Source: Myxococcota bacterium | GTDB lineage: Bacteria > Myxococcota_C > UBA6777 | Length of the DNA stretch: 47,724 bases | Assembly: GCA_023150835.1 (NCBI GenBank) | Contig: JAKLKB010000036.1 | Location: forward strand, 1 to 47,724 | Direction of reading: 5' to 3' | Shown here: positions 6,924-23,422 of the stretch, piece after piece | Layout of the letters: each line of letters opens with the position of its first letter | How positions within the stretch are numbered: the first letter of the stretch is position 1 | Made by a program: the position numbers and the translations under genes | The notes under the pieces: generated by a model | Seen by the model: only the letters and a program-made list of their open reading frames with translations | What the model was told of the DNA's origin: nothing | Database searches by the model: none

Positions 6924-7838
6924 TCACTTTTTCCGACGTACACGCGGGATCAACAACACTTTGAGTCGTATCTCCTGCCCTTCAGAGATACGAATGCGCC
7001 GAGTATACGGGGAAAACCCTTCGGATTCTACACGCAACAGATAATTTCCCACAGCCAAACCGCCGCTGATCACGGGCGTTTGTCCCATATAGCGACCGTT
7101 GAGTGTCACCTTTGCCCCTGTCGGATTGGAAAGCACCACAAACTGCGTTTGGGAGCCTTGACCGTCTTGCTGAACCGCCCCATCCCCCGCGTCTTTGGTT
7201 TCACGCCCGCCTCCTTCAAATCGGATCGAAAGCCGAGAACTGATCGAGGGTTGGATGTTGATGGACTTTTCGATACTTTTGTGCCCGTCCAAAACAAACC
7301 GCAACACGTGCGTACCGATCGGCAAGCTCGCCAACAACGGAGTGCGTCCAAGCATACGCTCGCCTTGGAACACTTGGGCTCCAGAGGGCGTAGACTGCGC
7401 GATCAACAGACCGCTGCTTTCGGGCTTTGGGAAAGGTGAACCTTGACGCGGCAAAGGTTCCTCAAGGCGAGGTGAACCGTCTTCTTTTCCGTCCTCTTTT
7501 CCCTCTTCTTTTTGTCCGACCGCCCCATCGCCGCTGCGTTCTTCGAGTCGTACCCGCAAGGTCAACTCTGAGCGCGACGGAAGGATGACATGGCTGGTCC
7601 ACGTCAGTCGGTTCGGATGGCGAAGTTCGAGATGATGGCGCCCCACAGGTAGGCGCAGATCAAGGGGTGTCTTTCCCCTACGTTCACCGTTGACCCAGAC
7701 CGTCGCAGAAGGCGTTGAACGCAAGACAAGGCGCTCTGCATGGGCTTCTTGAACAAGTCCCGCCGACCACAACACGCTCCAAACGGCCACACCATGCAGC
7801 CAACGCGACCACCGACCACACAAACGATCCGTATTCAC
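6924..7838 (-). CDS. Exported protein with three PEGA domains
   Basis: A 304-residue protein with an N-terminal signal peptide (hydrophobic run LHGVAVWSVLWSAGL, likely cleavage after QEAHA). Three PEGA-type beta domains follow: one around residues 37-100 (TPSATVWVNGERRGKTPL), one at about 150-215 (STPSGAQVFQGERMLGRTPL) and one at about 235-300 (SNPTGAKVTLNGRYMGQTPV). A Lys/Glu/Asp-rich linker joins the first two. PEGA domains are found in surface or periplasmic proteins and are thought to mediate binding. The GTG start at 7838 was chosen over the ATG at 7892 because GGAGG lies 6 nt before it and the signal peptide then begins directly. Partner unknown. Confidence 0.85.
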   Translation of the reverse strand: MNTDRLCGRWSRWLHGVAVWSVLWSAGLVQEAHAERLVLRSTPSATVWVNGERRGKTPLDLRLPVGRHHLELRHPNRLTWTSHVILPSRSELTLRVRLEERSGDGAVGQKEEGKEDGKEDGSPRLEEPLPRQGSPFPKPESSGLLIAQSTPSGAQVFQGERMLGRTPLLASLPIGTHVLRFVLDGHKSIEKSINIQPSISSRLSIRFEGGGRETKDAGDGAVQQDGQGSQTQFVVLSNPTGAKVTLNGRYMGQTPVISGGLAVGNYLLRVESEGFSPYTRRIRISEGQEIRLKVLLIPRVRRKK

Positions 7839-8155
7839 ACGAAACCTCCGTTTCCAAGAGCGCCGCTCCTCTGTGCAACATCTCTGCAACATCTTCTTTC
7901 GCCCTCATTAAAGCCGATATCGCTTGCATTTGCGATGCTTTCGCAAAAGAGCGCTTCTTTGTAATAAGGCAACCCCAAAGACAATGCAAGATCTCCAACC
8001 CCCTAAAAACAAAAACCCACCCAACGATCACCAAACCACCCACGAGAAGATTTGACAGTCTGCCGAGAAAAGGGCATCTTGGTGGCCGATGACGTGGAGA
8101 TGGATCTTGCGTGTAAGACTTTTCAAAAGATTTCACGCGAAAAAGGAGGATGCGC
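7839..8155. other. Divergent intergenic region between PEGA gene and thiD
   Basis: This 317-bp region must hold promoters for both the PEGA gene (minus) and thiD (plus). I looked for a TPP riboswitch, as often found upstream of thiamine genes, and saw neither the CUGAGA nor the ACCUGAUC-type core. A weak promoter-like pair for thiD is listed separately. The minus-strand frame crossing this region is not supported as a gene. Confidence 0.5.
8052..8080 (+). promoter_or_regulatory. Possible sigma-70-type promoter for thiD
   Basis: A perfect TTGACA at 8052-8057 is followed after 17 bp by CATCTT at 8075-8080, which matches TATAAT at only three of six positions. It lies about 75 bp before the thiD start. 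The -35 match and spacing are good and the -10 is poor, so this is a tentative call. Confidence 0.3.
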
Positions 8156-11001: not shown

Positions 11002-12960
11002 TTACGGGCTTGAACGCACAGAAGCTCCTTGTACGGGGGCCACCGAAGAGGAAGGGCTTTGAAGCAAAGCGCGGATCTCTTGAAGACGAGCAAGAAAACG
11101 ATCTCGCAACAAGTCGAGCTCTTTTTGGCGAATTTCCAAGATGGCACGTTGTGATTCCAAATACCCCGCCTGTCCGAGTTGATCGCGATGCTCTTCCATC
11201 ATCCGCGTGATCCGACCGAACAAGCTATCAAAGTACTGACTCACCCATTGTTTGATGCCTTGCGACACCCGATCAAGGATCAAAGCCATCTTGTCTGGAA
11301 GCAGGCGGCGTCCTTCGTGTAGCTGTTTGATCTGCGACTCGATATGTTGCCGAAGCTGCCGCGCTTTCATATAGTTTCGCGCAAACAGTCCCACCATAAA
11401 ACCGCCGATCCCACCGACAGGAAAAGCCAACGGACCTAAGAAAGACAGCAACGCCATCCCCTGCCCCCCCGCTGCCATCGTCGCACTCACCGTTGTCAGA
11501 CCCAAGATCGCCTCGGCAGCGCCCAAACGATCCTCGTATCCATCAAAGATCCCAAGCAGCGCTTTTTGGTTGCGGCTCAAGGCAAAAGACGTGCTGCTGT
11601 GCTTGAGTTGCCCGGGATCGCTCATCGCCAGCAGATCATCCAATTGCCGATAAAGCCATCGATGCGCGGCTTGAAAGATCGCATCCACCCGCTCTGCGAT
11701 CACTTTTTCGATCTTCGACCCCTGCACCAAGTTCTTTTGGTACAGCGCCTCGATCGACTCCACCATCGTACCAAAGACCTGCATCGTTTGGATCTCTTCG
11801 AGAGCCTGCACCGTTCCGTCCAACAACGCCCCAACTTCCGGCTCGATCATCGCTTGCAGACCCTTGATCTCCCCATCGATCGCATCAAAAAGTTCGTACT
11901 TTTTGAGTTCGGCTTTTTCGTGCGACTTATGCAGCGCGTGGATCTTCTTCTCGACATCGGCGCGTTTGGTAAACAGCACCTCGCCGCGCAACGTCAAGAG
12001 CTTTTGCAACAGCGTCACCACTTCAAAGCTATTGCGGATCGAAGAGGCCAGCACCGCACGGCTCGCATCTTGGGCCAAGAATCGCTCCAGATCCGACTGA
12101 AACGCTGGAAAACCGCTCGCGACAAAAGCCGCTTCATCGCCTTGTGTGATCGCTTCCCACGCCATCCGTGCGTTGATCACATACGCCCGTATCCGATCAG
12201 GCCGCAGATCGGGGTGGGCGCTCAGATCAGGGTCACGCGAGATATTGTGGATCACGCGCTCGCGCAACCGCTCGCGTTGCGGCCAAAAATCGCCCGAAAG
12301 ATTGATCACCAAAAACACTTTGTCGCACTGGTGGGTTGCACGCTTGAGAAAGTCCATCTCCCCACGCGTAAAGGGCGGATAAATGGACGTGATAATCACC
12401 GCCCCCATCTCATCCAAAAATCGCGTAGAAAGCTCGGTATAACTTTGGATCACGTCGTTGAGTCCGGGCGTATCAAAGAAACGGATGCCGTTTTTTAGAT
12501 AGCCCAGAGGCAAGCAGACACGCACCTTTGCGACACCTTTTTGATTTTCGGGATTGTGCATCTGATCAGTAAAGTGTGGGAGTTCTGCCCACGAAGTCGG
12601 CGCAACGCGACCATCCAGATAATGCACCTCCAAACGCTCCGTCTCACCGTACTCAAACTCCATCAGCGAGCCTGTGTTGGAGACCACATCAGGGCGCGTC
12701 ACTTCGCGGCGCGAAAGGCAATTGATCGTGGTCGACTTTCCACTACAAGTCTCGCCAAAGATCCCGATGGTCAGGCGATCATCTTGAACCAACTGCAGCC
12801 GCTTTTGGATCCGATCCAGAACGGTTTGTGTCAGCGAATCTCCCCCATCTTGCGCCTGATCGCGCCGCAACATCTCTGCCATCATCTCCAAATCCGAAAG
12901 CAGTTCTTGGCGGATCTCTATGTAGCGAGAAAGGCTTCCTTGCGGGTGTCGAAGCGTCAC
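11002..12960 (-). CDS. Dynamin-like GTPase
   Basis: A 652-residue large GTPase. The P-loop GETCSGKST lies at residues 69-77 (K75), after a ~60-residue helical lead. Switch/G3 DTPGLNDV is near residue 155, and a degenerate G4 region LVINLSGDF follows. The G domain is followed by long helical segments typical of the dynamin stalk. A Gly/Ala-rich hydrophobic segment near residues 520-565 (LLSFLGPLAFPVGGIGGFMV) resembles the membrane-inserting paddle of bacterial dynamin-like proteins; a helical C-terminus follows. Such proteins bind and remodel membranes. GTG 12960 is chosen because AGGAG lies 7 nt upstream; the open frame to 13572 would overlap the divergent tamB-like gene. The following gene (two-TM protein) is 69 bp downstream, a likely partner. 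Confidence 0.85.
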   Translation of the reverse strand: MTLRHPQGSLSRYIEIRQELLSDLEMMAEMLRRDQAQDGGDSLTQTVLDRIQKRLQLVQDDRLTIGIFGETCSGKSTTINCLSRREVTRPDVVSNTGSLMEFEYGETERLEVHYLDGRVAPTSWAELPHFTDQMHNPENQKGVAKVRVCLPLGYLKNGIRFFDTPGLNDVIQSYTELSTRFLDEMGAVIITSIYPPFTRGEMDFLKRATHQCDKVFLVINLSGDFWPQRERLRERVIHNISRDPDLSAHPDLRPDRIRAYVINARMAWEAITQGDEAAFVASGFPAFQSDLERFLAQDASRAVLASSIRNSFEVVTLLQKLLTLRGEVLFTKRADVEKKIHALHKSHEKAELKKYELFDAIDGEIKGLQAMIEPEVGALLDGTVQALEEIQTMQVFGTMVESIEALYQKNLVQGSKIEKVIAERVDAIFQAAHRWLYRQLDDLLAMSDPGQLKHSSTSFALSRNQKALLGIFDGYEDRLGAAEAILGLTTVSATMAAGGQGMALLSFLGPLAFPVGGIGGFMVGLFARNYMKARQLRQHIESQIKQLHEGRRLLPDKMALILDRVSQGIKQWVSQYFDSLFGRITRMMEEHRDQLGQAGYLESQRAILEIRQKELDLLRDRFLARLQEIRALLQSPSSSVAPVQGASVRSSP

Positions 12961-13264
12961 GGTCACTCTCCTGCCTTGCGTGGCCCTACGGGGCCGATCT
13001 ATCCCTGTCCAATGCGCCCCAAAGATATACGCATGGCTGCACAAAAGCAAAGCCTCCGCCCTTCCTTCCTTGCCTACATACTGTATCTCCCGAAGGAAAT
13101 AGAGGTTCGAGGGGGTTGATCTTGCTCGGTCCTTGCAACATCCTGTTGTGTTGTGCGCGAGCAGAAAAATATCCTTGATGTTCTGTTTGCACCATCGTTC
13201 GGCACAAATCCACTTCGCGTTGTACGAACACACCTCCCAACCCCGAAGAAAGCAGGCAAGCCTC
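12961..13264. other. Divergent promoter region between dynamin-like GTPase and tamB-like gene
   Basis: About 304 bp without a gene that I can support. It should carry the promoters of both flanking genes, but no strong -35/-10 pair stood out. A perfect short palindrome GGCCCTACGGGGCC-type hairpin is present at about 12981-12995. Open frames across it on both strands are extensions of the flanking genes beyond their best starts. Confidence 0.4.
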
Positions 13265-16200
13265 ATGGCAACGCAAGAAGCCCAAACCCTTCCAGCCTCC
13301 CCACCTCCCAAAAAACGCCGATGGCTCAGGCGGATCTTGTGGTTGCTGGGTGGCCTCTTGATGCTTCCTGTGGTGATCTTGCTGCTGTTTCTAGTCTTTT
13401 GGCAGATCGGGCCAAGTCGCGCTTTGGTTCGGTCCGTCGGTCTGTCCGTTGCATCGGGATTTTTGCATGGAAAGATCGAGCTAGACTCTCTCGGTGGAAC
13501 TTTGCTGACTGGACTTGAAGTCAGCGGCGTCCGCTGGTACAGCCGACAAGGCAAGCTGATCGCTGGACTCAAACGGCTCGATGTCCGCTATGATCTGATG
13601 AAGTTTCTGACCCAAGGCGAACTCGTCGTCACTTCGCTGACGCTCGAAAAACCCGAAGGATACTTGTTTGTCCAAAAAGACGGCCAGATCAACTTGCTCG
13701 CCCATCTCAACCTCGGCCCACCAAGCCAAGCCCCTCCCCCCGAAGTCGACTTGTCCTGTACCCCCCAAACCTTCGGAAAATCCGCAGGCTTTCGGCTATC
13801 TGTGCAAAAGATCGCGATCCACGACGTGCGGTTTTCATGGGGAGAAGGCGAAAATGCCCTTCGTGTCGAAGGATTGAACCTTTCCACTGACTTCAAAATG
13901 ATCGGATCCACCCTGATGGCCCATCTCAGCGACCTCCATCTCGACCTGTTCAACCCCGACGTCAAAGTCCGCAAGATCAGCCTCCGCTTCAAGATGGAAA
14001 CCCTCTGCGATCCCCGCACCAAGAGACAGATCACACAACTCCACGCCAAACAACTCGATCTCGACTTTGGTCAGCGTTCGGCCCTCCATCTCGACGCCAC
14101 CATCAAAGACCTCTCGACCCTCGATCTGCAAGTCAAATCCCGCCGATTCTTCGTAGCGACCGACGATATCAAGCGCATCGTCCCCGTCTATCCCGTCAAA
14201 CCCGATGTCCAAGCCGATCTCTTTACCGCCAGCGGTCCCCTTTCCGATCTTAAAGCCGACCTCAAACTCCGCCTCGGTCAAACCTCTCTCAAACTCGATG
14301 CCCGCGCAGGCATCCTCAACCAAAGCTACGATGTCAAGCTCCAACTCTCCAAAGCTGATCTCGCCGAGATATTGGGCAACCCCGCCCTTCAAAGCCTGCT
14401 TTCTCTTGAATTAACCGCCAAAGGAAAAGGCTTTTCGGATAAAACCAAAGGAAAAGTTCACCTTAAAGTCCGGCCAAGTTCATTTCAGCAATTCAAGATC
14501 GAAGAAGTCTCCGTTCTCGTCGACGCCGCCGACGGAGCCTTTACCATCCCCGCCCTACGTGTGCGCACGCCCTACCTCAACATCCCCAAGGGGGAAGCCT
14601 ACGTCAAACTCGACGGCGGCATCGTACGCGCTGACATCGACGGACGCATCGCAAACCTTTCTCCCCTCGGGAAAGTCGTCAAGCAAAAGCTCGCAGGAAG
14701 CGTCTCCTTCAACCTCAAAGCCAACGGAAAAAAATTCCTCCCCCAAGCCAACCTCACACTCAGCGGTCGAAGCATCCGCCATCCCGCAGCAAGTGTCGAG
14801 ACGATCCGCCTTCGCGCCGCCTTGCTCGATCTTCAGCCCATCACCGCCGAGATCAAAGAACTCTCCGTTCAAGGCGTCCAAGCAGGCGGACAAACCGTCT
14901 ACCGCGCCGATATCGGACTCCAGTACAAGATGGGACAAGGCAAACAAGGCCCCGCTCATCTTGTTCGCTTAGACAAACTCCAATTCGATGTCGGAACGGG
15001 TCTCTTTCGATTGCAGCCCAAAAACAAAAAGACCCGCACGCAGATCTCCTTTCAAGACGATATCGCAACGATCAAAAACTTTCGCCTCCAAAACGACCGT
15101 AGCAGCGCACGACAACGCCTGCGCAGACAACTTGCGATCCTCCGACGCCACCTCTTGCGCGCCCCCAAAACATCCGTCACCACACGATCTTTTGCAACAT
15201 ACCAAAGCGAACTCCAGCGCCGCGCAGAACAAAGCGATCTCCCTCGCCTTTGTCGCACCCTTTACAAACAACGCTATCTCGCATCACGCGCAACCACCCA
15301 ACGCCCAAGCCGCTCAAAGCGCACCGTCACCCCCTCAAAACAACGCTCGATCCGATCAAAACAACGCTCGATCCGATCAAAACAACGCTCGGTCCGATCA
15401 AAGCAACGCTCGGCCCCATCAAGGCACACAGCCTCAAGATCAAAGCAACCCTCGACCAAAGCAGCGGCTGCTGCGCAGGTTTACACCATCGCAAGCTGCC
15501 ACAGTCTCCTCGAACGCGCAGAGCAACACTTCGAACACACGACCCAAGCATGCACCACCCAAAACCCCGAATCCATCGCCATCCAAGACGCTCGCTTTCA
15601 CATCAAAGGCGCGGGTCAAACCTTGGGTCTGGCGATCCGCGATCTCGCGGTGGGCTGCGTCACAGGCGTACTTGGGATCATGCCCGATACACCGTTGCGT
15701 GGGTATCTTGATGTCGCGTTGGATGTCGCTGGAGACTTTCGCAAACCCCGCCTCGAAAACCTCTCTATCCACCTGAAAGACGGTCAATTCGACAAGTTCC
15801 GCGATCTCACCCTCGCCCTCAACGCATCTTACAACCCCAAACGCTCTCCCAAAAACCTGCGGCTCCCGCGTGATGTCTTTCACCTCGATCTCAACGCTGG
15901 ATACAAAGAACTCAACTTGCTGCGCCGAACCGATGCAAACACCCCCCAAAAGGCCGAACGGAAGCTGATCGCGCTCAAAGCCCGTCTCCCCATCCGCGCC
16001 GCCATCCAAGGAATGCCGCGTCAGCCCATCCAGTTCGAACGAAAGCTCCGCGAACCCATCCTCTTCCTCTCGCTCCCCAAGATATCCCTTGGCTGGCTTG
16101 CCCGCGTCCTCAATCAAGGCGACCTCGCCCGAGGGCAACAGCCCGGGACGCTCCAACTTGGCGGCACCGTCGATGCCGAGATCAAGCTACTCGGGCCGCT

Positions 16201-19200
16201 GAGTGTCCCCACGCTCGATCTGCGCTTTGCCCTCGAAAAAGGCCGCTACGAGCAACTCAGCGATATCGACCTCAAACTCAACGTCCACTTCCATGACGGC
16301 GAACTCCGCCTCCCCAAAGAAGAGAATCGCCTCTACATCAACAAAAAGCCGATCTTTGCGCTCGGTGGGATGCTCCCCCTCCACCTTCGCCTTTCTCCTC
16401 CAACGCGCCCTCAAAAACGCAAAGCGGCCGCTGCTTCGCTTTATTGGTTGGATGATACACCGCTCGACTTTTTCTTTAAGATCTATGGTCAACAAGTTCA
16501 AACATGGCGAGACTTTTTACCTACCGATCTGCGCGATGCGATCGGTGGTCTTTTGCACGCAGATATCCTGCTTGCAGGCAAACCCAGCGCCCCCTCATTC
16601 CGCTTTGATATCCGGTTTGAAGAAGGCAGCTTCTGCCCACTTGTTTCTCAAAACGTCCGACTGTCCGCCAAGGAAAGACGAGCGCTGTTAAAGAAAGCCC
16701 AAGCAGACGAAAAAAAGCGCATCGCTGCGCTGCGTAAACAAGGCAAAAACGAAGCCCCCCAAACGATCACGCTCGACGATATGCCTTTGACTCGCTCTGT
16801 CAGTGCCTTCCGATGTAGCCAAAAAGTTCGCTCTCTTGTCAGCAAACAGCCCAAAGCCACTTCCTTGCGCGTGAAAGGCATCCATTACCACCTCGGTTTG
16901 CGCTATCTTCCCCCGGGACAAAGCCACGAGATCTCGCCGCTTTGCCCAAAAGAGTCGGGGTGCTTCTCGTTTTTCTCCAAGCTCCACCTTGCCCAACACA
17001 AGGCGGCCAAAGCCACGACCTACTTTGAACTTCCCGAAAAAACCAACTGGCTTGCGATGACCCTGCGCGTCGATCCCAAAACGCTCCAACCATCGGTTCG
17101 GATCTTCGATCACGTCAGCCTCGACCTCCAGATGCCCGGGCTTCCCTTGCGCGATCTCTACCGATTTGTCCGTATCCCCGCACTTTTACAACTCAAACCC
17201 GGAAGCCGCTTTGTCTTTTCTTTCCGCGAACAAGGCAAACTCTCGCAACCCCGCCTCGCCCTTTCCGCACGCCTCCAAGACGTCGGCTACGAGATGGGTC
17301 GCGACGTGGACGACAAGCCACTTTACCTCGATGGAGTACAGGCGATCGTCGATCTGTCCCTTCAGCCCGGCCAAACTAAAGCTCTGATTAAAACCCACGT
17401 GTTCAACAAGCCTCTGCTCACCAACACCACGCGCTATGATCTCGATGTCGCCGTCGATCTGGCTCAACTCAACCAGATGCTGCCCGGCAACCCCCGCCCC
17501 AAAACCCCCGCCAAACAAGGCATGGTGCGCGTCGAAGCGGGACGCTTCTTCTCCAATCGCTTGACCTTCCATAACTTCCGATTGGAAAACTTCGCACAAC
17601 TCGGCGGCATCTACACCAAACTCGCAGGGATGCTCACAGGCGCGGTACTGCTTGAGGGCGATCCTGCCTGCCCTGAATGGAAAACCATCGAACGGGCCCA
17701 AGGCAGCGCCCCCCCCAAAGAAAGCCACATCGAACTGCGCAACGGCATCCTTGGTGATCGCGGTAGCCCAAAAGCCCAAAGCAAAGAGTTTGTCGCAGCC
17801 CTCAAAGCACGCGAAGCCTTCGAAGCGATCGCACGACGTTGGCGAGTCGCCACCAACCAAGAAAACGAACTCAGCAACAAGATCGATCAGATCCAAAAAA
17901 AGCCAAACCTCGCTGACGAAGACAAAGCCAAACTTCGCTCGTTGCTTGCTCAACGCCAAGACTTTCGACGACGCACTTTTTACCCGATTACAGGACGCTA
18001 TAACCGCGCCCGCCAAGCGCTGCTCGCCTTCTCTCGCAGCAGCAAAAAAGCCCTACGCTTTAGCCATTTTTATATCGGCTTTTTTTCTACAACCAACGAT
18101 GAGCAAACGCAAAAAGACGGACGCACACGCATCCTGCTCAAGATGGTTCAAGACGGCTCATGGAAGATCGAAGGCAAAAAGCGGATCATGCGCGGCTTTG
18201 ATATCCTCGACGGAGAGATCCTTGCGGCCCTGCCTCTCGCGCTTGCGGCGATCTCAAACCCACAAGAGCGCCAACGGCGTTGTCCTGCCCTGAAACAGGG
18301 AAAGGCCGACGAACGCCTGTACGTCAAACTCGGCGTGATCGGTGAGCGCATGAAGCTCGATTTCATCGAAGCCTTTGCTCCCGGGATCGAGATCCAAGGT
18401 GAACCCAAACTGGTCGTCAACCTCTCTGGAACCCTCCAATCTCCCGAGATCAAAAGCGGTCAAGTCGGTGTCGAGATCAGCAAACTGACCTATCCCGCTT
18501 TTGGGGTAGAGATCGGCGAGCAAAAAAATCCGCAATATCGCTTCGCAAAGCCGATGCGTTCGCAGTTTGTGATCCAACTCAAACCCAAACAATATCAAGT
18601 CCTCTGCCGACTTTACGGAAAAACGGGAACCCCCTTCCAAATCGACGGGTGGATCGCTCACAAGAACTTTGTCCCCTCGGACATGAGCCTCAAGATCTTT
18701 TCCAAAGAATTCAAGCCGATGGACACCCTGCGCTACCGCGCAACGCTCCAAACCAACATCTCCATCCAAGAAGCCCTTGATGCCCCCAAGATACGCGGAT
18801 CGATCACCATCCCCGAATTTCTTTTCACTCTCCCAGAAAGCAGCCGCAGCCCACAAACCTACATCGAAGACGAAGATATCTATATCCTCGGTGAACCTCG
18901 CAAAAAACGACGTAGCCGCGACCCATTCGAGGAAAAGCCCCCTCCATCGGGCATCACACAAAAGATGCTGCTCGATCTACAGATCATCATCCCGCGCAAC
19001 TTCTTTGTACGCAACCGCGATCTCAGCATCGAAGCCAAAACCGAAGACTTCCGTCCACTCGGCGTCAACCTACAACGCGGACGCCTCCGCCTGACAGGTG
19101 GTTTGCAGATCCAACGCGGCGAGTTGGCCTTTTACGGGAAAAAATTTCTTGTCGAAAGCGGAAGCGCCGTCGCTTTTACAGGTCAATCCTTTGGCATGGA

Positions 19201-19882
19201 TGAACTCGGATACATCGACCCCAAACTCAATGTGATCGCGGTGTACATCGTCAAAGTCCAAAGCGGCACAAGCCTCGCAAAACAAGGCTACAAGCGTGTC
19301 AAAGTCTTGCTCAAAGCCCTTGGCTCGGCCCAAAACCCGATCATCGAGTTCGAAGTCATCGACGCCGACACCGAAACCAAGATCTCTATGGATCGCATCA
19401 ACGTGCTTTCCTTGATCCTCACAGGCACCACCACCGAAGATCTCAGCCGAGGCCAACAAGACAACATCACCAAACAAGCCGTCGGAATGGTCGGAAGTGC
19501 CGTCGCTTCCGAACTCAAAAACGCGCTCTCTGGCGTCGTTAAAATGGACGTCCTCAACATCGAAACAGGCGCAAACGTCAGTGATCTCAAAGTCGAAGCG
19601 GGTTGGTACTTGACGCCTGACCTCTACCTCGAAGTCGCCGTCAAGCCCGCCCCCCTCGAAGAAGAAAGCTACCTCGATATGCGCCTCGACTACGCCATCA
19701 ACCGCAATCTCTCCCTCGAACTGCGCTCCGGCCTCGTCAAGCGCAACGACGCGTTGTGGTTTCGTGGGTCGGGCCACTTTTTTGTCAAAGGAAAATTCTT
19801 GTGCCTTTGGCCGTTCTGTCCAGAAGACAGAAGGCTCCCCAAACCCCCACCGAAACGAAAAACTCCTCCACCAAAACGATAA
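13265..19882 (+). CDS. tamB: TamB-like translocation/assembly module protein (AsmA-like bridge)
   Basis: A 2205-residue protein, well above the usual 1200-1500 for TamB. A basic N-terminus (KKRRWLRR) precedes one TM helix at about residues 23-47. A very long beta-rich region follows, full of short repeats of the type LxLxGxxxxPxLxLxxxL seen in AsmA/TamB/YhdP bridge proteins. The C-terminal part (about residues 1850-2200) carries the DUF490 pattern: IPRNFFVRNRDLSIEA, RGRLRLTGGLQIQRGEL, GSAQNPIIEFEV, then a porin-like GWYLTPDLYLEVAVKP tail. TamB spans the periplasm from inner membrane to the Omp85 partner TamA and is implicated in phospholipid transport and outer-membrane protein assembly. An Arg/Ser/Lys-rich insert with 21-bp repeats near residues 600-740 interrupts the beta pattern. 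ATG 13265 directly precedes the TM; its ribosome site is weak. Confidence 0.85.
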   Translation: MATQEAQTLPASPPPKKRRWLRRILWLLGGLLMLPVVILLLFLVFWQIGPSRALVRSVGLSVASGFLHGKIELDSLGGTLLTGLEVSGVRWYSRQGKLIAGLKRLDVRYDLMKFLTQGELVVTSLTLEKPEGYLFVQKDGQINLLAHLNLGPPSQAPPPEVDLSCTPQTFGKSAGFRLSVQKIAIHDVRFSWGEGENALRVEGLNLSTDFKMIGSTLMAHLSDLHLDLFNPDVKVRKISLRFKMETLCDPRTKRQITQLHAKQLDLDFGQRSALHLDATIKDLSTLDLQVKSRRFFVATDDIKRIVPVYPVKPDVQADLFTASGPLSDLKADLKLRLGQTSLKLDARAGILNQSYDVKLQLSKADLAEILGNPALQSLLSLELTAKGKGFSDKTKGKVHLKVRPSSFQQFKIEEVSVLVDAADGAFTIPALRVRTPYLNIPKGEAYVKLDGGIVRADIDGRIANLSPLGKVVKQKLAGSVSFNLKANGKKFLPQANLTLSGRSIRHPAASVETIRLRAALLDLQPITAEIKELSVQGVQAGGQTVYRADIGLQYKMGQGKQGPAHLVRLDKLQFDVGTGLFRLQPKNKKTRTQISFQDDIATIKNFRLQNDRSSARQRLRRQLAILRRHLLRAPKTSVTTRSFATYQSELQRRAEQSDLPRLCRTLYKQRYLASRATTQRPSRSKRTVTPSKQRSIRSKQRSIRSKQRSVRSKQRSAPSRHTASRSKQPSTKAAAAAQVYTIASCHSLLERAEQHFEHTTQACTTQNPESIAIQDARFHIKGAGQTLGLAIRDLAVGCVTGVLGIMPDTPLRGYLDVALDVAGDFRKPRLENLSIHLKDGQFDKFRDLTLALNASYNPKRSPKNLRLPRDVFHLDLNAGYKELNLLRRTDANTPQKAERKLIALKARLPIRAAIQGMPRQPIQFERKLREPILFLSLPKISLGWLARVLNQGDLARGQQPGTLQLGGTVDAEIKLLGPLSVPTLDLRFALEKGRYEQLSDIDLKLNVHFHDGELRLPKEENRLYINKKPIFALGGMLPLHLRLSPPTRPQKRKAAAASLYWLDDTPLDFFFKIYGQQVQTWRDFLPTDLRDAIGGLLHADILLAGKPSAPSFRFDIRFEEGSFCPLVSQNVRLSAKERRALLKKAQADEKKRIAALRKQGKNEAPQTITLDDMPLTRSVSAFRCSQKVRSLVSKQPKATSLRVKGIHYHLGLRYLPPGQSHEISPLCPKESGCFSFFSKLHLAQHKAAKATTYFELPEKTNWLAMTLRVDPKTLQPSVRIFDHVSLDLQMPGLPLRDLYRFVRIPALLQLKPGSRFVFSFREQGKLSQPRLALSARLQDVGYEMGRDVDDKPLYLDGVQAIVDLSLQPGQTKALIKTHVFNKPLLTNTTRYDLDVAVDLAQLNQMLPGNPRPKTPAKQGMVRVEAGRFFSNRLTFHNFRLENFAQLGGIYTKLAGMLTGAVLLEGDPACPEWKTIERAQGSAPPKESHIELRNGILGDRGSPKAQSKEFVAALKAREAFEAIARRWRVATNQENELSNKIDQIQKKPNLADEDKAKLRSLLAQRQDFRRRTFYPITGRYNRARQALLAFSRSSKKALRFSHFYIGFFSTTNDEQTQKDGRTRILLKMVQDGSWKIEGKKRIMRGFDILDGEILAALPLALAAISNPQERQRRCPALKQGKADERLYVKLGVIGERMKLDFIEAFAPGIEIQGEPKLVVNLSGTLQSPEIKSGQVGVEISKLTYPAFGVEIGEQKNPQYRFAKPMRSQFVIQLKPKQYQVLCRLYGKTGTPFQIDGWIAHKNFVPSDMSLKIFSKEFKPMDTLRYRATLQTNISIQEALDAPKIRGSITIPEFLFTLPESSRSPQTYIEDEDIYILGEPRKKRRSRDPFEEKPPPSGITQKMLLDLQIIIPRNFFVRNRDLSIEAKTEDFRPLGVNLQRGRLRLTGGLQIQRGELAFYGKKFLVESGSAVAFTGQSFGMDELGYIDPKLNVIAVYIVKVQSGTSLAKQGYKRVKVLLKALGSAQNPIIEFEVIDADTETKISMDRINVLSLILTGTTTEDLSRGQQDNITKQAVGMVGSAVASELKNALSGVVKMDVLNIETGANVSDLKVEAGWYLTPDLYLEVAVKPAPLEEESYLDMRLDYAINRNLSLELRSGLVKRNDALWFRGSGHFFVKGKFLCLWPFCPEDRRLPKPPPKRKTPPPKR
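15335..15418 (+). repeat. 21-bp in-frame tandem repeat, 4 copies, in the tamB-like gene
   Basis: Units start at 15335, 15356, 15377 and 15398 and encode SKQRSIR, SKQRSIR, SKQRSVR, SKQRSAP. They sit within a strongly basic, low-complexity stretch (about 15085-15480) that also reads openly in the other two forward frames, where it encodes NNARSDQ-like repeats. The basic insert is unlike the beta repeats on either side. Confidence 0.85.
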
Positions 19883-20049: not shown

Positions 20050-20988
20050 ATGTTTCAGACGATGTATGACATCTCCATGGGCGGACGCGCTGGCATCCTC
20101 AACCGCATCTTTACCGTTGCGATGTTGCTGGTCGTCGCCGTCCAACTTTGGCGCTTGCTCCACTTTCGTGTACGCCTCTCGCGCTGGCGCGATCGGCTTC
20201 GCCTTCTTGAACAAGAAGCCCGCGAAGAAGGCGTTGTCACCGCCACCGACGAAGACGTCCTCCCCCCCACCAACCCCTATGCCCGCTTTTGGGATATGGT
20301 CCCTTCGATGGCCATTATGTTCGGACTTCTCGGAACCTTCGTCGGCCTCACGCTCTCTTTGAGCGAACTCCCCGTCACAGGCGAAGTCGATCAAATCCAA
20401 AAAGGTCTGTCTCGATCGATCCCTTCGATGGGTACGGCCTTTTGGACCAGCCTTGCAGGTCTGATCGTTGCTCTGGCTGTTCGGATCTCGAACGCCTTTA
20501 TGGCTTCAAGCTTCCGCAAGCGCGTCATCCAAACCCTGATGCAAAGTGAACCCGCTGTGATCGAAGCCCTTGAAAGCAAAGCCTTCCAACTTGGCCGAGA
20601 TGGCGCGCTTTTGCGCACGCACAGCATCCGTGAGCTACTCTGGCACCAAAACCGACTGCTCAATCAAACCGTCGCCCGCGTCGCCCCCCAAGTCTCCGAA
20701 GGTATCGCACGCGGTCTCGGCCAGCTTAACGGGCAAACACCTACTCCCATCGCAACAAACACCAGCAGCCCTTCCCTTGACCGCCTTGTTCGACAGCTTG
20801 AGACCCAACAACAAGATCAACAACGCAGCCTCCAAGCCATGATCGAACAACAACAAGCCATCCTTCAACAACTCCAGCACCTGATCGCCCTCTGGAGCCA
20901 AGCCCCCACCGCCGACTCGACCGCTGATTATTCCCTCGAACGTACCAACGTCGGCACGCCCACACCTTTTCCCAACAAAGGCCGATAA
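20050..20988 (+). CDS. TolQ/ExbB/MotA-family ion-channel subunit
   Basis: A 312-residue inner-membrane protein with three TM helices: about residues 15-37, 83-104 (MAIMFGLLGTFVGLTLSLSE) and 125-150 (IPSMGTAFWTSLAGLIVAL). The last two carry the GLLGTVxG and GMGTAFxTSLxGL signatures of the MotA/TolQ/ExbB family, whose members surround a dimer of MotB/TolR/ExbD and use ion flow to do mechanical work. Three rather than four helices points to TolQ/ExbB. The C-terminal 140 residues form a cytosolic tail ending in a Gln-rich coiled coil (QLETQQQDQQRSLQAMIEQQ), longer than in TolQ. ATG 20050 has AAGGA 7 nt upstream. It begins a three-gene run with 56- and 59-bp gaps, 167 bp after the tamB-like gene. 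Confidence 0.88.
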   Translation: MFQTMYDISMGGRAGILNRIFTVAMLLVVAVQLWRLLHFRVRLSRWRDRLRLLEQEAREEGVVTATDEDVLPPTNPYARFWDMVPSMAIMFGLLGTFVGLTLSLSELPVTGEVDQIQKGLSRSIPSMGTAFWTSLAGLIVALAVRISNAFMASSFRKRVIQTLMQSEPAVIEALESKAFQLGRDGALLRTHSIRELLWHQNRLLNQTVARVAPQVSEGIARGLGQLNGQTPTPIATNTSSPSLDRLVRQLETQQQDQQRSLQAMIEQQQAILQQLQHLIALWSQAPTADSTADYSLERTNVGTPTPFPNKGR

Positions 20989-21044
20989 ACCTCGCGGATC
21001 AAGCCGATCCGCTCCACAACTCTTTGCAATCTGGAGGTGGTTTC

Positions 21045-22172
21045 GTGAACCCACAAAACGATTGGGATGAAGGCGGCGAAGAAGAACTCGATCCTTGGGC
21101 GAGCGTCGTGGATCTAATGAGCGCTTTTGCGCTCGTACTTTTTCTTGCTGTCACCTTCTTTGTCATCAACTACAACAGCGCAAGCACCAAACTCAAAGAG
21201 CGGCAGTCTCAACTTGTCGTCAAAGAAAAACTCCTGCAAAGCTCGATCTTGAGCTTGCGCCAACGCACCGAAAGCCTTGAAAAGTCCCGAGCATCCGAGG
21301 CCAGCTTGACCAAGAAAAACGATGAGATCCAACGTCAACTGATCCTGCTCGCCGAACAAGAGAAAAAGCTGCGCACCGAGCGCGAAAAACTACTTGGCGA
21401 TCGACAAGCCCTCCTTGCAGACAAGGAAAAGCTGATCGCCGATCAAGAAAAACTCAAAAAAGAAAAACAAGAACTCACCATGATGCTTGGGCGTCAAGAA
21501 GCCCTTGTCAGCGAGCAAAAACAACTTGCGGAGCGCCAGAAACAGGCCACCGAAGAACAAAAACAAGAAACACTTCGCCAACAAAACCTCGCATCACAGG
21601 CCCAAACCAGCCGTCAACGTTGCCAAGAACGCCTCGAAAGCTTGCTCAAACAGCGCCGCGAAGTCCTCAGCGCCGTCTACAAATCCTTTGTGATCGCCCA
21701 ACAAAACAACCAAACCCGCTCAGCCGTCGGATTTGACCCCAAAACAGGCCGATTCCGCCTTGGTGGCGAAGTGTTGTTTGCCGAAGGAAAAGATCAACTC
21801 ACTCCTGAAGGAAAGCGCCAATTGGACGTTGTCATGGAGGCTTTGCAAAAAGTCGTCAAACAAAAAGACGTCGTCGCCCTGCTTTCCGGCATTATGATCG
21901 AAGGACACACCAGCCAAACGGGCTCCGAAACCACCAACTGGGTTCTGTCCTCTCGGCGATCTCTTGCGGCGTTGCGCTACTTGTTGTCTCGCGCAGACGC
22001 ATCGCAACGCAGCACTTATGCCAAGCTGCTCTTTTCCGCTGCCTACGGCCCATTTCGACCTGTAAAAAGCGAAAAAGGCACCGTCGATAACCGGCGCAGC
22101 CGACGCATCGAGATCAAGATCGTCTTCAAAAGTCAAGACCAGCTCCAAGGCATCTTGCGCCAAATCAACTAA
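21045..22172 (+). CDS. MotB/OmpA-like stator protein with long coiled coil
   Basis: A 375-residue protein with MotB/ZorB-type order. A short acidic cytosolic start (NDWDEGGEEELDPW) is followed by one TM helix (VVDLMSAFALVLFLAVTFFV) with an Asp, D23, at its cytosolic end where the proton-carrying Asp of MotB/TolR/ExbD sits. Residues 45-215 are an uninterrupted Lys/Glu/Gln-rich coiled coil. The C-terminal OmpA-like peptidoglycan-binding domain (about 240-370) has IMIEGHTSQTGSE, LSSRRSLAALRYL and DNRRSRRIEIKI. GTG 21045 is used, with GGAGG 7 nt upstream. It should pair with the upstream channel subunit and anchor it to the cell wall. The ~170-residue coiled coil places the OmpA domain far from the membrane, longer than in flagellar MotB. 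Confidence 0.88.
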   Translation: MNPQNDWDEGGEEELDPWASVVDLMSAFALVLFLAVTFFVINYNSASTKLKERQSQLVVKEKLLQSSILSLRQRTESLEKSRASEASLTKKNDEIQRQLILLAEQEKKLRTEREKLLGDRQALLADKEKLIADQEKLKKEKQELTMMLGRQEALVSEQKQLAERQKQATEEQKQETLRQQNLASQAQTSRQRCQERLESLLKQRREVLSAVYKSFVIAQQNNQTRSAVGFDPKTGRFRLGGEVLFAEGKDQLTPEGKRQLDVVMEALQKVVKQKDVVALLSGIMIEGHTSQTGSETTNWVLSSRRSLAALRYLLSRADASQRSTYAKLLFSAAYGPFRPVKSEKGTVDNRRSRRIEIKIVFKSQDQLQGILRQIN

Positions 22173-22231
22173 GCACTTCGCCCTTCACGCAAGGGTTGAC
22201 GCGCCATATCCTGCGCGATCAAGGAGAGAGC

Positions 22232-23422
22232 ATGCCCATCCACATCTCCGAAAAGGAACGCCGCCTCCCTTTCGATACCTATTATGTCGAAGGCACCGAG
22301 TCCGGCTTGACCGATGATCTCAAGTTCCGACCCAACAAATACTTCCATCCCATCGACTCGATCGACGCCAACGATCGAGAGTGCATTTTTCGCTACCAGC
22401 GCTCCCTTGCGCCCGTCGAAGGCGAACTCACGCTCGAACAAGTCCGCCAGATCTTGCTCGGCGTTCTTGATGCCCAACAGCGCGTCGCGCATGACCAAAC
22501 CTTTTACCTCTTTCCCGGGGTCGAAGCCTTTGGCCTTGACCGCCGACACAACCTACGCATCGCCCTGATCAACGCACGACCGATCCGCGACCGCGAGTGT
22601 GATCCCCAAGAAATGAATGTGGACGCCTTCATCCGCCTGCTCGCCGCTCACTGCCCCGAAGCACACAAACGCATCGTGGCCTACAACAAGCCGATCCTCA
22701 CCCTGCGCCATCTCCAACAGATCCTCGAATACAAAGGCGCTCCCATCCTCACCACCGCCTTCGCAACGCTCGCTGTCGTCGGCCTGATCGTCTTTGGACT
22801 GCTCCACCAATACGGCCCCCCCCGCATCCGTCAACCCCTCCAACAATGGACCGCTGGCGTCCTCCAAAGCGGAAAGCGCTTTACCCGCTCAGGCACAGAC
22901 GAATGGTACGTCCAGATCGGCGAAGAACGCCGCAAGCGCGAATACACTCACCCTCCGCTCTCCTTGACCCTCGTCCTTCAACCCCAAGTCAACACCGACG
23001 AAGAACGCCAAACCCTCTTCCAATTCCTCAATCGCTTGCTTGCCACAGAATTCCCCAACACACGATACCAACTCCTGCTCCCTTCGCCCGATCTGTCCTC
23101 CAAAGCCTATATGCGCTGGAAAGCTGCCTGCGAGTACGGCTTCCAAAAACAAAAGTGCCTGCCCAAAAGCTGGCTGCTGCAAATCGAGGAATACAAAGGC
23201 GCGATCCGCCCCCTCCTTGGAGCCCTCCGCGAAGCCATGCACCAAGAACGCGCCAACAAACCACTCGTCGAACTCCGTTACGTCGAACTGATCGGCATGG
23301 CGGACTTGACCCTCAAACAAAACACTCCTCCCACCACCCCCCAAACAACGCCGCACTCACCCGCACCCACCAAAACCCCCGCTCCCGCTACTCCAAACAG
23401 AACCGCCCCTCCCACACGCTAA
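22232..23422 (+). CDS. Unrecognised single-TM protein, third gene of the ion-channel operon
   Basis: A 396-residue protein I do not recognise. Residues 1-168 are polar and presumably cytosolic; a TM helix spans about 171-191 (ILTTAFATLAVVGLIVFGLL); residues 200-375 would be periplasmic, and the tail is a Pro/Thr-rich linker that ends the protein. The segment LTLEQVRQILLGVLDAQQRV followed by FYLFPGVEAFGLDRRHNLRI is faintly like the catalytic-loop region of degenerate kinases that precede a TM helix (EssB/YukC-like), but no catalytic residues are seen and I do not claim it. The periplasmic part contains two Cys (CEYGFQKQKC). ATG 22232 has AAGGAG 5 nt upstream. Its place 59 bp after the MotB-like gene suggests a dedicated partner of the motor. 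Confidence 0.75.
   Translation: MPIHISEKERRLPFDTYYVEGTESGLTDDLKFRPNKYFHPIDSIDANDRECIFRYQRSLAPVEGELTLEQVRQILLGVLDAQQRVAHDQTFYLFPGVEAFGLDRRHNLRIALINARPIRDRECDPQEMNVDAFIRLLAAHCPEAHKRIVAYNKPILTLRHLQQILEYKGAPILTTAFATLAVVGLIVFGLLHQYGPPRIRQPLQQWTAGVLQSGKRFTRSGTDEWYVQIGEERRKREYTHPPLSLTLVLQPQVNTDEERQTLFQFLNRLLATEFPNTRYQLLLPSPDLSSKAYMRWKAACEYGFQKQKCLPKSWLLQIEEYKGAIRPLLGALREAMHQERANKPLVELRYVELIGMADLTLKQNTPPTTPQTTPHSPAPTKTPAPATPNRTAPPTR

Follow-up and report, generated by a model that had tools for sequence, protein, structure and literature searches.

A ZorAB-like motor gene pair with a lineage-specific membrane third gene adjoining tamB in a small clade of Myxococcota

Do three genes located downstream of tamB encode an ion-driven envelope motor with a third subunit of its own, and is this motor related to TamB? 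The question is raised by the window, the whole stretch of 47,724 nucleotides of a Myxococcota genome that was analysed, in which four genes are arranged on the plus strand in the order tamB, A, B and C. The tamB homologue (13265..19882, plus strand; 2205 aa) starts with the ATG at 13265, the longest open reading frame beginning with TTG at 13133. It matches PF04357 with 141 bits (cut-off 22.4, 8.2e-41) over residues 1831-2199 of the long reading frame, and is the sole TamB match in the window's genome. Gene A (20050..20988, plus strand; 312 aa), predicted to encode a channel subunit of the TolQ/ExbB/MotA/ZorA type, starts 167 bp after the tamB stop. Gene B (21045..22172, plus strand; 375 aa), for a stator-type subunit, starts with GTG at 21045 and has a good ribosome-binding site, as read in the sequence. 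Gene C (22232..23422, plus strand; 396 aa), for a lineage-specific protein with a single transmembrane (TM) segment, starts with ATG at 22232, preceded by GGAGAG. With these starts, the gaps of 56 bp (A-B) and 59 bp (B-C) reported in a preliminary description of this DNA are confirmed, as is the position of the trio downstream of a 2205-residue TamB. No terminator-like sites were seen on the plus strand in the three gaps between the four genes.

Protein A possesses three hydrophobic TM segments (residues 15-33, 86-104 and 134-152) and matches Pfam MotA_ExbB (PF01618; 36.4 bits, cut-off 22.9, 4.9e-9), in agreement with its earlier designation as a TolQ/ExbB-like channel protein. The extended coiled-coil tail also ascribed to it was not found; the tail is a modest, poorly conserved Gln-rich helical stretch of ~45-60 residues (about 235-290), and is not of ZorA length. 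The TM motifs GTFxGLT and GTAFWTS are invariant across five A orthologues. Protein B consists of a short N-terminal tail, a TM helix with Asp23, a heptad coiled coil of ~170 residues and an OmpA-like peptidoglycan-binding domain (OmpA, 49.9 bits, cut-off 27.2, 4.4e-13). Asp23 lies within the motif W-x4-D-L-M and is invariant, together with the flanking TM residues, in three full orthologues. The heptad period of the coil is visible as an autocorrelation peak at lag 7 and in the Fourier power at 3.5, which was matched by 0.1% of shuffles. The OmpA match and these statistics bear out the MotB-type architecture proposed for B, with its TM Asp, long coil and OmpA domain. At 0.15 nm per residue, the coil would measure about 25 nm and could reach the peptidoglycan across a wide periplasm.

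The best PADLOC matches of the two proteins are ZorA for A (1.9e-12) and ZorB for B (3.2e-33). In the search of PDB sequences, B matched solved MotB- and ZorB-type chains, and A gave weak matches to ZorA-type chains. The entries 8vvi and 8vvn are, by their names, presumably the ZorAB structures of PMC11890865. Because of the ZorA and ZorB best matches, the PDB chains and the invariant TM motifs, the A-B pair is best classified, at the level of sequence, as a 5:2 motor pair of the ZorAB-like or generic kind described in PMC11890865 and PMC12505986, and not as a new channel class. That A and B form an ion-driven motor is considered very likely.

Protein C contains one TM segment (~172-193) with two invariant cysteines on each side, an N-terminal domain (1-~170), a C-terminal domain (~240-362) and a Pro/Thr-rich tail. 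An invariant juxtamembrane stretch, Q-[YFW]-G-P-P-R, is located after the TM segment, and the orthologues are 41-54% identical. No sequence relatives of C were detected in Pfam, NCBIfam, PADLOC or PDB sequences, profile search included, and no Pfam match was obtained at E<=10, so that the preliminary statement that C belongs to no recognised family still holds. No signal peptide was seen by eye, and the charges flanking the TM segment fit no single orientation under the positive-inside rule. A topology with the N-terminus inside and the C-terminus outside is assumed here by analogy with EssB, TolA and TonB.

The arrangement was compared in all five genomes that make up the phylum (G000-G004), representing three genera. 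tamB is directly followed by B, or by A and then B, as TamB-A-B-C in G000 and G004, TamB-A-B in G001, where the contig ends inside B, and TamB-B-C in G002; in G003, TamB and the start of B are on one contig, and the end of B and C on another. Counted in this way, tamB and B are neighbours in five of five genomes, and C follows B in four of the four whose contig continues. G001 was rejected as a genome lacking C, given that its contig stops inside B; a weak C match there corresponds to sequence without a recognisable C gene. Genus g2 (G002 and G003) harbours A unlinked from tamB, on G002:C35 (L029:5128-10365) and G003:C375 (L030). In both genomes it is preceded by two genes that encode large exported proteins, in an identical order. 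The proposed three-gene unit is consequently found in G000 and G004, and is broken up in genus g2. TamB of G000 shares 38% identity with that of G004 and 32% with that of G002, and the G002 locus of 18-21 kb matches the window genes only at TamB, B and C. Because no other window gene matches this locus and TamB is only 32% identical, tamB-B-C has been kept as a unit through rearrangement, within a single small clade. The link of the motor genes to tamB noted before is in this respect upheld. In one small clade, such a linkage could be historical in origin.

Other genes are also found around these loci. In the window, a gene for a dynamin-family GTPase (11002-13572, minus strand; Pfam 9.8e-13, PADLOC LeoBC 1.4e-13) is divergent from tamB, an arrangement common to G001 and G004 and not to G002. 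A membrane-remodelling GTPase of this family adjoining tamB may merit attention. An exported PEGA-domain protein with three repeats is encoded by the gene after C in G004, G002 and G003 (L009:2882-3784, L010:439-1452 and L011:1707-2597). The window lacks such a gene after C but has a PEGA gene at 6924-7892 (minus strand).

Scanned by an alignment-based method, 84,980 prokaryote species yielded C only in G002, G003 and G004. C was not found in 285 genomes of other phyla, nor in phages and plasmids. A search for A orthologues at E<=1e-12 covered 195 genomes of the G032 phylum, and one at E<=1e-10 covered 285 other genomes. Neither gave a match, which is weak evidence of absence because the searches had no positive control. 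ZorAB-like pairs that lack both C and TamB were seen on G004:C174 and G003:C354, in genomes that do carry C, and also on G190:C1 of an unrelated genome. C was found only in this phylum, where the same genomes also contain ZorAB-like pairs without it. It is therefore an addition made to one pair in this lineage and not a general motor part. The preliminary description had proposed a new member of the motor class with a dedicated third subunit. A motor pair with a C that stays with B is indeed encoded here, the class itself being a known one (ZorAB-like) and C being clade-specific. It had also made C depend on accompanying the pair in other genomes; ZorAB-like pairs without C exist, and the orthologous pair keeps C. 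We regard it as likely that C is part of the A-B motor.

The second, paralogous ZorAB-like pair of these genomes lacks a third gene, its A protein is longer (~490-510 aa), and it was located on G004:C174 (L076:4615-7121), G003:C354 (L077:7870-10506) and G003:C146 (L078). In G004 and on G003:C146, the paralogous A gene is divergent from a threonine synthase-like gene.

The N-terminal domain of C was further compared with known folds. An AF2 model of C from four orthologues reached pLDDT 53 and pTM 0.32, and a model of the N-terminal domain alone did not raise the confidence (pLDDT 46). The first ~170 residues of the former model, low in confidence (pLDDT 53), retrieved mostly kinases (Z 6.3-7.5), with matches to EssB 4ano (Z 6.9, rmsd 3.4 over 140 residues), YukC 6z0f (Z 6.5, rmsd 3.7 over 140) and TraF 8cba (Z 7.2, rmsd 4.4 over 147). 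Nearly all matches of the domain-alone model (pLDDT 46) were likewise kinases, with Z up to 4.1, and YukC and EssB were among them (6z0f, Z 3.6, rmsd 5.2 over 138). The enrichment of kinases is weak evidence, because they are very common in the PDB; EssB and TraF chains are few there, yet share the layout of C. At the level of sequence, no support for a kinase or EssB origin was obtained: hhalign of C against nine Ser/Thr kinase (STK) sequences of these genomes gave nothing (prob 0.1), C matched neither the Pfam kinase nor the YukC family (PF10140), the search at E<=10 and the PDB profile search were empty, and the YukC profile had no match in 290 genomes, including any genome of the phylum. 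On the models, the chances that the N-terminal domain has a kinase-like fold appear evenly balanced. C may derive from a protein kinase that decayed and took on the function of a connector. If so, its catalytic motifs would be lost, the stretch expected to carry HRDxxxxN and DFG reading FYLFPGVEAF ... LINAR. EssB lacks both motifs as well, with Ytfvlapd and TRG in their place (PMC12599244). At least ~140 Ser/Thr protein kinase matches are present in each of G000-G004; because these genomes are very rich in such kinases, a source for a kinase-like domain would be at hand.

Taken together, we propose an ion-driven A5:B2 motor of the ZorAB or generic type with C as connector and an envelope process, probably involving TamB, as client, a scheme to which we give an even chance. 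A and B would assemble as A5:B2 in the inner membrane, and ions, either protons or sodium, would cross at Asp23 of B inside the A pentamer, turning A around the B dimer. The coiled coil, up to ~25 nm long, would end in the OmpA domain that fixes B to the peptidoglycan. C, bitopic and specific to this motor, would have been added as a third subunit in this phylum, with a probably cytoplasmic N-terminal domain that may serve as a degenerate, non-catalytic kinase-like hub similar to EssB/YukC and TraF, and with a periplasmic part made of a small alpha/beta domain and the Pro-rich tail. In this position, C could link the motor to its client. An envelope process with TamB appears the most likely client, because the tamB-B-C linkage has been kept through rearrangement.

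Alternatively, the ZorAB-like pair and its accessory subunit may do work in the envelope that is unrelated to TamB, tamB being only inherited operon context with shared transcription or growth-coupled expression; to this explanation we give somewhat less than an even chance. The stand-alone ZorAB-like pairs without TamB, the position of A outside the tamB operon in genus g2, a second tamB of G002 on G002:C19 (L117:6120-12044) with no motor gene alongside, and the description of TamB-class transport in E. coli as diffusive (PMC11226057) are in agreement with it. However, tamB-B-C persists in three genera despite the divergence of TamB (32-38% identical) and otherwise different flanks in genus g2. 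A functional tie of the motor to TamB is possible, but we hold it to be rather doubtful. That the motor powers TamB, as previously suggested, is speculation; the suggestion did not gain ground beyond proximity. Anterograde phospholipid flow in E. coli, a TamB-class transport, is described as diffusive and not energy dependent (PMC11226057), and no paper linking TamB to a TolQ-type motor was found in the literature. The most far-reaching version, a pmf-powered AsmA-like transport in which a dedicated motor acts on a TamB-type lipid or protein bridge through a membrane pseudokinase subunit of a 5:2 motor, is unlikely.

Two known systems were also considered. TolQRA has a similar gene order and a bitopic third subunit. 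A, B and C acting as TolQ, TolR and TolA of this lineage is nevertheless very unlikely, and the Tol system was discarded in view of the OmpA domain of B in place of a TolR domain, the ~170-residue N-terminal domain of C, which matches no TolA or TonB family model in Pfam or NCBIfam, and the MotA_ExbB genes elsewhere in the genome. Because there are ten of these besides A, several scoring as canonical TolQ/ExbB (e.g. one of 252 aa in G001), A, B and C need not be the Tol or Ton motor of the genome. Anti-phage defence of the Zorya type, with C as an unrecognised effector, would agree with the ZorA and ZorB library matches and with the LeoBC defence match of the divergent dynamin gene upstream of tamB. 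However, the NCBIfam scores are far under their cut-offs (ZorA, 36.5 against 100; ZorB2, 40.5 against 400; ZorB1, 32.7 against 400), and no ZorC/D, ZorE or ZorF/G effector or nuclease was recognised in C or nine flanking proteins. C is moreover a membrane protein, the genes occur throughout the clade, and searches of plasmids and phages did not find C. Zorya was ruled out by the low family scores and the missing effectors, and this explanation is most improbable.

Similar to ZorA and ZorB, a 5:2 motor (PMC11890865), A is a MotA/TolQ/ExbB-type channel protein with a helical C-terminal tail, and B possesses a TM Asp and an OmpA-type peptidoglycan-binding domain. In contrast to ZorAB, the tail of A is much shorter and the coiled coil of B much longer, and the locus differs from Zorya in lacking ZorC/D/E effectors, in its membrane third protein and in the tamB linkage throughout a small clade. 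The generic ion transporters (GIT; Puente-Lelievre et al. 2025, PMC12505986) are also non-flagellar homologues of MotAB, TolQR and ExbBD with variable appendages and usually adjacent A and B genes. According to that study, no OmpA-type domain is present in GIT B subunits, whereas the B described here carries a clear one. The pseudokinases EssB/YukC (T7SSb) and TraF (pIP501 T4SS), whose catalytic motifs are lost (PMC12599244, PMC13037476), resemble C in an apparent N-terminal domain of ~170-210 aa, one TM segment, an extracytoplasmic C-terminal domain and the low-confidence fold match. They belong to another phylum, C has no detectable sequence similarity to them, and no T7SS or T4SS genes were recognised in the neighbourhood of C. 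EssB/YukC acts as an assembly hub, and TraF is postulated to do so (PMC13037476, PMC12599244); if the N-terminal domain of C is a pseudokinase, this would be a new job for the fold outside secretion systems. The conserved neighbourhood of tamB raises the testable question whether TamB-type inter-membrane transport is ion-powered in some lineages. TolQ-TolR-TolA and ExbB-ExbD-TonB combine, like A-B-C, an ion-channel pair with a third, bitopic protein through which force might cross the periplasm, but C has a ~170-residue N-terminal domain and a compact C-terminal domain, and B an OmpA domain and not a TolR/ExbD domain. A ZorAB-like pair with a conserved membrane third subunit would add a motor variant, such third subunits being familiar chiefly from TolA and TonB.
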